This document shows positions 3,652 to 60,256 of a stretch of DNA of 64,000 bases, one piece after another; within the stretch, counting starts at the first letter, position 1; each line of letters begins with the position of its first letter. Below the pieces are notes generated by a model. The model saw only the letters and a list, made by a program, of their open reading frames with translations. It did not search any database and was not told the DNA's origin. The stretch comes from an uncultured Anaerolineae bacterium. GTDB taxonomy: Bacteria > Chloroflexota > Anaerolineae > Promineifilales > Promineifilaceae. The stretch covers positions 16,217-80,216 of the forward strand of contig CALEAD010000010.1 of assembly GCA_937943625.1 (NCBI GenBank). The letters run 5' to 3'. The position numbers were made by a program, and so were the translations under genes.

Positions 3652-3800
3652 GAGGTTCCTCGCTAACTGCGCCTGTTGGAAACTGGGGCTGTGACTGCCG
3701 ACCAGCGACTGCAGGCTGCCTTGCCTCTCTGGTATTGCGATTGGCGGTCTGCCGTCGGCGGTCGAAAAAGTGTCAAGAGCATCTGAACCGTGCTCTAATT

Positions 3801-9845: not shown

Positions 9846-9890
9846 GAGTTGGCCGTCGGCGGTCGGCGGCCATTTTCAAGGGAACCAATC
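9846..9890 (+). promoter_or_regulatory. Repeated leader module before accC
   Basis: GGCCGTCGGCGGTC followed by CATTTTCAAGGGAA and the ATG. The same ATTTTCA(A/T)GGGA block with a preceding GCGGTC word occurs before the CooC-like gene (43250-43273) and mtnP (54380-54419), with weaker versions before 16538 and 28382. AAGGGA serves as ribosome site. Any further regulatory role is inference. Confidence 0.5.
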
Positions 9891-28267: not shown

Positions 28268-28381
28268 GGCCCAGGCGTGGTTCGCCATTTAACGACCGAC
28301 CACCGACAGCCGACTGCATTCCAGAAGTCAATAACAATCTGCCGCCAGCCGTCTGCGGTCACCCTCAAGGGAGATAGAAAT

Positions 28382-32157: not shown

Positions 32158-32301
32158 AGGCATGGTTCAAGCTACCTTTACAATTTGACCGCTGACCATC
32201 AACTGCCGGCTGCGATTTTGCCAATGATGGGCGGTCTGGCGTCAGCCGTCTGCGGTCAAAAATTTGTAAAGCATCGTTTCCAGAGAAGCTAAACCATGCC
32301 C
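32158..32301. mobile_element. MITE-like element A (144 bp)
   Basis: Ends are AGGCATGGTTCA and TAAACCATGCCC, an inverted pair. Inside are further inverted segments (TTTACAATTTGACCGC against GCGGTCAAAAATTTGTAAAG) and a TCAGCCGTCTGCGGTC word. Flanking ACAAAC and ACGAAC could be a 6-bp target duplication with one change. No protein is encoded. Related elements: 42766 and 48046. Confidence 0.7.
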
Positions 32302-33640: not shown

Positions 33641-35362
33641 ATGTTTCGTGAAAATAAGCAGCAACAACAACCCAGTTTCTTCAACAGCGACTTCCTGATG
33701 CCCGATAAAATGCGCCAGCAATTGCACGGTTCCTGGGCCGGTGTGTTCCGCACAGAGGTCTTCATGAACATCCCCGAAGATCGTTTCGCTGTCTTGTACA
33801 GCGAAACAGATTCGCGCCCCAACGCGCCCATCAACGTTTTGGTCGGCGGAGAGATGCTCAAAGACGGGTTCGGTTGGAGCGATGAAGAATTGGAACGGCA
33901 TTTGCAATTCGACCTGCAAACCCGGTATGCGCTTGGGTTGGACGACCTGACCCAAAGCGTGCCGACGCTGCGGACATTCCAAAACCATCGGCGGCGTGTC
34001 CGAGAACATGCTGAACGCAGCGGCGAAAACCTGTATGAGGTTGTCTTTCAGGTAGTCACCGACAAGCAGATAAAGCAGTTGACACTGAAAGTGGGCTGGC
34101 AGCGGATGGATAGCACCCAATTGTTGAGCAATATCGCTTTGGGCAGTCGTTTGGAGTTGGTTTTGCGCGTCTTGCAGCAAGGGGTAGCGGCCTTGTCGGA
34201 GGAGCGACAGGCAATCTGGCGACAAGAACACGCGCCGTATGTGGACAAACAACCGCGCCATATCTGTTATCGGCTGAAAAACGAAGAAGTGCCGGCCTAT
34301 TTGCAGCAAACGGGGCAGTTGCTGGTCTCCTTGTTGTCGGAGTTGGAGAGACAGGAAGAGGCAGCCAACGCCAGAGCGTTGGTGGCGCGGGTGCTGCGCG
34401 AGCAGTATCAAATAGAAGATGGCGAAAAAATCACGCTGCGCCAGGCAAAGGACGTGGCCGCCGACAGTTTGCAATCGCCCCATGACCCCGAAGCGACATA
34501 CCGGGAGAAAAACGGTGAACGGTATCGGGGCTATGTCGCCAACATCAGCGAAACGTGCGACCCAGAAAACCCGGTGCAGCTGATCACCAGCGTGCAAATA
34601 GCCAGCAACAATACCGATGACAGTGAATTGTTGGCCCAATCGTTGGACGAGCAGGCTGAACGAGGGCACAAGATAGACAAAATGACGGTAGACGGGGGCT
34701 ATACCGGACCGAAAGCGGAAGAAGCGTGCGACGCACATGGCGCAGAATTGCATCCATCGCGGGTACGCGGCGGTAAATCTCAAGGGGAGAAGTGGGGTTG
34801 GGAGAAATATAGTTGGCAGGTGACAGAGGAGGGCGTGCCAGAACAGGTCAGTTGTCCGCAGGGGGAACTGGCTATTTTGGAGCCGGGGCGTAAAGAGGGG
34901 CGCTGGGTGGCGCGATTTGCGGAAGATACTTGTTCGGCGTGCCCCTTTTTCCAAAAGGGATGTCGGGTGGAGGTGCGTAAGCGCAGCGGTCCGACATTGT
35001 TGGTCACAAAGCGGGCTATTCAGGTGGCCGTGTTGCACCAGCGGGCGACAAAGGAAAACAATGGGATTCGGGCAGGCGTAGAAGCGACGATACGCTCGGT
35101 CAAGCATGTTTTTGCCGGGGGGAAGCTGCCAGTGCGCGGCTTGATTCGGTCGCAGATGGTCGTTTTGGGGTCGGCATTGGTCGTCAATGTCCATCGTCTG
35201 GCTCGTTACTATTTCGAACAGGCTTCGCAGTTGGATGAAAATGGGTCTGAGATTTCTATTTTGTCTCTATTTTTGTTGCTGATAGCCCATTTGACGGCCG
35301 TTTCCCATCGTTTGGGCGCTATTTTCGAGCGGCGATGGGTTCTTCAAACCAATGTCGCCTGA
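33641..35362 (+). CDS. IS1182-family transposase
   Basis: A 573-residue DDE transposase. The N-terminus (FNSDFLMPDKMRQQ, GRPNAPINVLVG-like DSRPNAPINVLVGGEML) and the segment MDSTQLLSNIALGSRLEL followed by TVDGGYTGPKAEE match IS1182/IS5-group transposases, with the catalytic acidic residues in MDST and TVDGGY. A Cys cluster (CSACPFFQKGC) typical of this family is present near residue 430, followed by the conserved ATIRSVKHVFAGGKLPVRG. The frame is intact, so the element may be active. One ACGGCCGT lies near the 3' end. Confidence 0.93.
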   Translation: MFRENKQQQQPSFFNSDFLMPDKMRQQLHGSWAGVFRTEVFMNIPEDRFAVLYSETDSRPNAPINVLVGGEMLKDGFGWSDEELERHLQFDLQTRYALGLDDLTQSVPTLRTFQNHRRRVREHAERSGENLYEVVFQVVTDKQIKQLTLKVGWQRMDSTQLLSNIALGSRLELVLRVLQQGVAALSEERQAIWRQEHAPYVDKQPRHICYRLKNEEVPAYLQQTGQLLVSLLSELERQEEAANARALVARVLREQYQIEDGEKITLRQAKDVAADSLQSPHDPEATYREKNGERYRGYVANISETCDPENPVQLITSVQIASNNTDDSELLAQSLDEQAERGHKIDKMTVDGGYTGPKAEEACDAHGAELHPSRVRGGKSQGEKWGWEKYSWQVTEEGVPEQVSCPQGELAILEPGRKEGRWVARFAEDTCSACPFFQKGCRVEVRKRSGPTLLVTKRAIQVAVLHQRATKENNGIRAGVEATIRSVKHVFAGGKLPVRGLIRSQMVVLGSALVVNVHRLARYYFEQASQLDENGSEISILSLFLLLIAHLTAVSHRLGAIFERRWVLQTNVA

Positions 35363-42765: not shown

Positions 42766-42872
42766 GGGCATGGTTCATCTTCTCTAGAAACGGTGTTTGA
42801 CAAATTTCTGACCAAAGCAGTCTGCGGTCCACAGTCTGCGGTCAAATTCCAAAGGTCGCTTGAACCATGCCC
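42766..42872. mobile_element. MITE-like element B (107 bp) with 6-bp target duplication
   Basis: Perfect 12-base terminal inverted repeats GGGCATGGTTCA / TGAACCATGCCC, flanked on both sides by AATTTA (42760-42765 and 42873-42878), the expected mark of transposition. Inside are TCTCTAGAAACGG, GACAAATTTCTGACC and two GCAGTCTGCGGTC words. It starts 7 bases after the FNT stop codon and encodes no protein. Confidence 0.85.
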
Positions 42873-42912
42873 AATTTAGGGATTAAAAAATAGAAACTGG
42901 AGACTAAGACCC

Positions 42913-48045: not shown

Positions 48046-48192
48046 AGGCGTGGTTCACACTTTCTAGACTTTCTAGAAACGGCGCTTTACCATTTCCTGC
48101 CCGCAAGCAGTTGACGGCAGATCGCCCATCACTGGCAAAATCGCGGTCAGTAACCGGCGGTCAAATTTGTAAAGATCATCGGCAGCATGCCC
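48046..48192. mobile_element. MITE-like element C (147 bp)
   Basis: Left end AGGCGTGGTTCA, right end GCAGCATGCCC, so the terminal repeats have diverged. Internal words match elements A and B: TTTCTAGAAACGGCGCTTTACC, GCGGTCAAATTTGTAAAG. No target duplication is clear. Confidence 0.65.
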
Positions 48193-59889: not shown

Positions 59890-60256
59890 GGTTTTTCCTC
59901 ACGTTGGTGCAATTTTAGGCATTATTCGGGCGCTATTTTAGCCAGAGGAAGTAAGAAGAACGTTAACAAGATAGGTTGGTGCCCATTCTGTTGTTGGTTG
60001 GCTTGACGGTTTGATGGTTGGTTAGCGCAAAACGACCTAGTTCGCGCTTTTTGGAAACGGCGCTTTACAATTTCTTAGCCGCAAACGACCAACCGCAGAC
60101 CTGCAGACTGGAAACAAATCTCAATCTGCTGTTCGCGCCGCTGTTCGCGGGCGGCAATCAAATGAACCATACCCTAAAAACTAACTATCAAACCAACCAA
60201 CCATCAATCTAGCTGAAGCGCCTTGCCCGTCACAAAGTGCGCAAGCAGCAGAACCA
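59890..60256. other. Spacer with a decayed MITE-like element
   Basis: A 367-base spacer. TTTGGAAACGGCGCTTTACAATTTCTTAGCCGC (from 60049) resembles the inner part of the MITE family, and TGAACCATACCC at 60163-60174 resembles its right end; the left end is missing. Outside are an inverted pair, GGTTTGATGGTTGGTTAG (60007-60024) and CTAACTATCAAACCAACC (60180-60197). The small ORF at 60018 is not convincing. Confidence 0.45.

Follow-up and report, generated by a model that had tools for sequence, protein, structure and literature searches.

The repeat at positions 42767-42871 of the window (the whole 64,000-nucleotide stretch of Anaerolineae DNA analysed here), hereafter element B, is best explained as one copy of a family of miniature inverted-repeat transposable elements (MITEs) whose ends and inner boxes are constant while the hairpin cores between them differ from genome to genome. 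Taken as a whole, this explanation is given a probability of about 0.9. The finding is larger than that first described from the sequence of the window. The copies located in the window, all of them at intergenic positions, are as follows (HMM scores refer to the family model).

42767-42871, plus strand: element B, 105 bp, a short copy with a truncated hairpin core; 88 bits
42759-42766: left target-site duplication of element B, CAATTTAG, an exact 8-bp direct repeat
42872-42879: right target-site duplication of element B, CAATTTAG, an exact 8-bp direct repeat
32159-32300 (contig C10:48375-48516), minus strand: full-length copy of 142 bp with the complete heptamer hairpin; 133 bits
48047-48191 (contig C10:64263-64407), plus strand: diverged copy with one degraded end; 79 bits
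28268-28381, minus strand: relic with the core and one degraded end; 32 bits, model positions 44-138
60049-60174, plus strand: relic with an GGAAACGGCGCTTTACAA box and a right end with one mismatch (60163-60174), recognised from its sequence
3672-3795, plus strand: degraded copy with core, box and right end TGAACCGTGCT; 32 bits, model positions 44-143, and recorded in the core census

The sequence-only reading had named the elements at 32158 and 48046 as members and those near 28273 and 60049 as relics, all of which agrees with this list; the copy at 3672-3795 had been overlooked. The same reading gave element B perfect 12-base ends (42766-42872) and a 6-bp duplication, AATTTA. The sequence does match over 12 bases, and AATTTA does stand on both sides, but the true terminal inverted repeats (TIRs) are 11 bp long (GGCATGGTTCA/TGAACCATGCC, no mismatches), the better boundary is 42767-42871 and the real duplication is the 8-bp CAATTTAG. 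AATTTA is the inner part of this repeat, and the supposed twelfth end base is its outermost base. When 12-bp ends were used, an exact 6-bp duplication was scored in 9 of 42 cases (against 0.17 expected); this figure was a boundary artefact, since one duplicated base per side had been counted as TIR, and it was replaced by the exact 8 bp obtained with 11-bp ends. The outer bases of the 8-bp repeats need not be complementary (e.g. AAAACGCG, CAACATTA). The 8-bp flanks of the full-length copy at 32159-32300, CACAAACA/CACGAACC, differ at two of eight positions; the ends of the copy at 48047-48191 carry one and three mismatches, and no duplication was recognisable in its flanks.

Element B is not alone in being duplicated at its target, the first point on which the earlier reading could have failed. 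With several genomes pooled, an exact 8-bp duplication was found in 74 of 125 end pairs (11-bp ends, at most one TIR mismatch), when re-pairing left and right flanks predicted 0.55. The copies were mostly gathered via their ends and hence are not random samples, although duplications played no part in their selection. The window's genome (G000) contributed 9 exact cases in 49 end pairs (17 of 49 with at most one mismatch), G015 50 in 82 and G009 7 in 11; none of the five end pairs of family f35 showed an 8-bp duplication. The duplicated target resembles (C/G)AAATTT(G/C).

Across all 89 contigs of the genome (4.09 Mb) there are 436 matches to GGCATGGTTCA at no more than one mismatch, compared with 28 for a reversed-pattern control; within the window the end pattern is not above chance (13 matches, 8.6 expected). 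When 23 copies were used to build a sequence model, it retrieved at least 151 copies from the genome. From these two figures the family is therefore estimated at ∼200 copies, degraded ones included. The elements measure 105–145 bp in G000 and 119 bp in G015, too short to encode a transposase.

When the flanks of 57 duplicated G015 copies were joined and then searched, a spanning pre-insertion paralogue was found for 12. Locus L216 matched its counterpart in L159 at 78 of 78 bases, and L185 its counterpart in L220 with 96.5% identity over 86. These pre-insertion sites are paralogous and lie inside other repeats. In G000, the copy at L255:1501-1623 sits within an older family member, the uninterrupted sequence being present in many others. 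That the element has transposed is shown by its empty sites, its precise ends and duplications of constant length; with inverted termini, high copy number, dispersed copies and no coding capacity, these bear out the earlier assignment to a MITE family. The intergenic position of the window copies would also suit a structured RNA or cis-regulatory hairpin kept by selection at gene ends, with no transposable element involved, and single copies fold better than shuffled sequences (z to −6.4 in the window). Most copies fold well because they are inverted repeats, however; the RNAalifold covariation term was −0.04, compensatory changes did not support a conserved structure, no Rfam family matched, and both copy age and interior differ by genome. 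Given the duplications and empty sites as well, selection on an RNA alone is extremely improbable.

The transposing element is asymmetric in build: an 11-bp TIR, a spacer of ∼6 bp, a CTTTACAAATTT box, the hairpin core, a AAATTTGTAAAG box, a spacer of ∼17 bp and the second 11-bp TIR. Read from the short-spacer end, the G000 consensus is GGCATGGTTCA-(AGCGAT)-CTTTACAATTT-[core]-AAATTTGTAAAG-(about 17 bp)-TGAACCATGCC, that of G009 is GGCATGGTTCA-AGTCAG-CTTGACAATT...AAAATTTGTAAAG-TTGGCTGCCAGGGAGCAG-TGAACCATGCC, and that of G015 is GGCATGGTTCA-GGTCAG-CTTTACAAATT...TGTTAAG-CACCGTTTGCCGACTTT-TGAACCACGCC. Ends and boxes are alike, and interiors different, in G000, G001, G009, G015, genus g22 and family f35; the ends and the inner CTTTACAA box are also common to other genera and to a second class, Chloroflexia, again with different interiors. 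A hairpin lies between the two boxes in every lineage, but its sequence varies. The core consists of GACCGC heptamer hairpins in G000 and genus g22, GGACGNA heptamers in G009, CTTCGACAGGCTCAGGACAG-type or TGTAGCCGCG repeats in G001 (a genome of the same genus as the window's), and CTCCACAG octamers in Chloroflexia (G437, G160); CTTCGACAGGCTCAG repeats represent another interior type outside the window's genome. In G015 the core is made of TGTAGG(A/G)CGATTTGGTAAATCG dimers, that is, GTAG-tagged REP dimers: a tag lies by a short stem-loop, copies are many and arranged as dimers, and many lack MITE ends. The sequence-only reading was right in that the copies share ends and inner words, but did not recognise the interior as a hairpin repeat in its own right, varying from one genome to the next.

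Some G015 loci depart from this build. At L294:11146 and L283:6961, 40-bp versions without boxes and core retain matching flanks (AGAAAAAG in L294); they either arose by deletion or represent a tiny movable form. At L156:5527 and L204:7095 a further small element, GGGTGTGTTTCA...TGAAACACACCC, lies in the REP hairpin within the MITE, making three nested layers, and in L156 it is bordered by an apparent 9-bp duplication, TTTGGTAAA. A head-to-tail tandem array of MITEs with 6-bp joints (CTCTAC) occupies L317:7606-8406 (C50), parts of it masked as N, and is flanked by the 8-bp repeat CTCTCTAC.

In both genomes examined in this respect (G000 in the window, and G015), hairpin cores also occur without MITE ends, alone or in another repeat. 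Such free cores, and the fit of the G015 cores to the GTAG-tag description, raise the question of whether the core is itself the mobile or selected unit (REP/BIME-like, and moved by a REP-associated tyrosine transposase), the GGCATGGTTCA ends being a preferred landing palindrome; REP dimers in host palindromes have been published for three species (PMC3733652). Against this, the 8-bp duplications border the ends and not the core, and genomes with unrelated cores have the ends in common. This contradicts the core as the sole mobile unit, and an account built on it is quite improbable. The core has moved jointly with the ends; it may move independently too.

For the MITE with exchangeable cores, a DDE transposase would supply movement in trans, as suggested by the constant stagger of the cut in an element that has no coding capacity. 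Conservation of the two inner boxes across genomes, one nearer its TIR than the other, marks them as putative binding sites for the transposase or a host factor. The resident hairpin repeat of each lineage would have lodged between the boxes and then been amplified together with the ends as one unit; this is the simplest account, given that the hairpin of G015 is also present without ends. No element whose centre is empty was found (directly joined boxes would read CTTTACAAATTTGTAAAG), so the insertion of the hairpin is something we infer rather than observe. The missing empty-centre ancestor is also compatible with a family of the same MITEs in which the interiors were rewritten rapidly in place, through slippage and hairpin-primed copying of short repeats, with no insertion of a resident hairpin. 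In G000, G009 and f35 the core is a fold-back of short tandem 7-mers or 8-mers, which slippage can expand and rewrite; the G015 core, however, is a REP dimer found elsewhere in the genome without ends, and that of G001 is a longer, differently built repeat. Rewriting in place is possible, above all for the heptamer cores, though unlikely as the general explanation. Returning to resident-hairpin insertion, we tentatively propose, at somewhat less than even odds, that the GGCATGGTTCA ends act as a general carrier: the transposase would mobilise any short palindrome between two CTTTACAA boxes, the ends would be inherited and the cargo exchangeable, and the resident hairpins of a lineage would be picked up and spread both inside a genome and from one Chloroflexota lineage to another.

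The heptamer hairpin is also part of another repeat, which ends in GGTCATTTTCAAGGGAG and lies just upstream of start codons (window positions 9868, 43252 and 54397; L007:958 on the minus strand, L008:423, L012:189, L061:327 and others). An ORF of at least 80 aa begins within 5–9 nt downstream at 12 of 17 unique sites, compared with 16% of random positions, and the repeat looks like a repeated 5′ leader with the ribosome-binding site. Some copies are hybrid, combining this repeat with the MITE's left half. The G015 counterpart, GCGCACCAAGAGG(A/G)ATGAAAATC[REP dimer]ATTTTCGTAGGAGTTCCCC, is partly tandem (L271:1-300, L278:1900-2100, L275:7590-7750) and repeats the pattern in which the host sequence stays constant and the hairpin changes.

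A complete transposon sharing the MITE's ends, suggested earlier as a check, was sought among the DDE_Tnp_1 genes of G000 and in ∼1.7 Mb of G015, and no autonomous partner with GGCATGGTTCA ends was found; in the G015 sequence, no end pair with a duplication surrounded a transposase gene. G000 has only two DDE_Tnp_1 matches, and the ends of both differ from those of the MITE. One is the window's own transposase gene (33641-35362, plus strand), a 573-aa ORF with DUF772 and DDE_Tnp_1_6 domains that is IS1182-like. For this, the one DDE transposase located in the window, the earlier statement that no window transposase has such ends holds. ORF clustering in 1.2 Mb of G015 revealed no multi-copy gene, and a search of G015 for insertion sequences by 8-bp duplication gave nothing convincing. 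Several candidates for an autonomous element were rejected: the inverted pair in L196 proved to be two MITEs, the 2.1-kb pair in L182 encloses ordinary genes, the 801-bp pair in L317 is the tandem array, the 1.6-kb pair in L312 has poor ends, and the match in Phycisphaerae L223 is probably due to chance.

An 8-bp target duplication and ends beginning GG are features of the ISL3, IS1595, IS256, IS6 and IS1 families. The present family is like them in both, and no member with GGCATGGTTCA ends was found. For IS6 the 8-bp duplication is documented (PMC7986276). Neither ISL3 nor IS1595 transposases had a single match in G000, G009 or G015, the main carriers, and derivation of the MITE from either was discarded. 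The parent may sit in unassembled repeats, belong to another transposase family, or be lost.

Among 400 sampled Chloroflexota genomes, the exact pattern was confined to two families, f35 and the window's own; in GTDB, the ends-plus-box pattern was found in Anaerolineae and Oscillochloris-type MAGs, among the matches listed. Viral contigs gave no matches to the pattern, and a G015 copy searched against plasmids gave none. In G015 the copies are young, with a mean pairwise identity of 94% among 61 of 119 bp; in G000 they look old, with 11 of 142 bp averaging 70% by ungapped comparison. Ends in G001 often lie 30–200 bp from contig ends and face outward (e.g. C48:32, C60:110, C121:90, C142:90; L135, L138), which suggests that near-identical copies broke this assembly.

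Bacterial MITEs such as Nezha, Chunjie, QMITE2 and MITEAba12 are well known (reviewed in PMC10969869). The present family resembles them in size, inverted ends, target duplications, non-coding nature, intergenic position and high copy number, but here one set of ends encloses unrelated interiors across genera and two classes. In the MITE BrickBuilt, described from Porphyromonas gingivalis (19 copies in one species; PMC4596501), tandem repeats likewise lie between a constant leader and tail and form a minisatellite of 23-bp units; the present units are of 7–8 bp or REP dimers, the copies number ∼200 and the interiors change between genomes. The REP dimers reported in host palindromes (A. variabilis GTAG-15, H. 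neapolitanus CGTC-1, T. roseum GTAG-23; PMC3733652) are also hairpin repeats in the middle of a conserved palindromic sequence, but each was described in one species and the host was not demonstrated to be a transposon, whereas here 8-bp duplications and several hairpin types are seen. A text search of the literature for the end 11-mer returned only unrelated papers. No earlier report of this family, or of constant MITE ends with varying hairpin cores across genera, was found in the open-licence literature searched; since only open-licence papers were covered, this absence is weak evidence.

Any search for the transposase will need the corrected boundaries, with 11-bp ends and an 8-bp duplication. 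The family accounts for hundreds of intergenic repeats in draft genomes of Anaerolineae and Chloroflexia, some of which probably break assemblies. It connects MITEs and REP-like hairpins, repeat classes usually treated apart, and provides a way for hairpin repeats to multiply and perhaps cross species.
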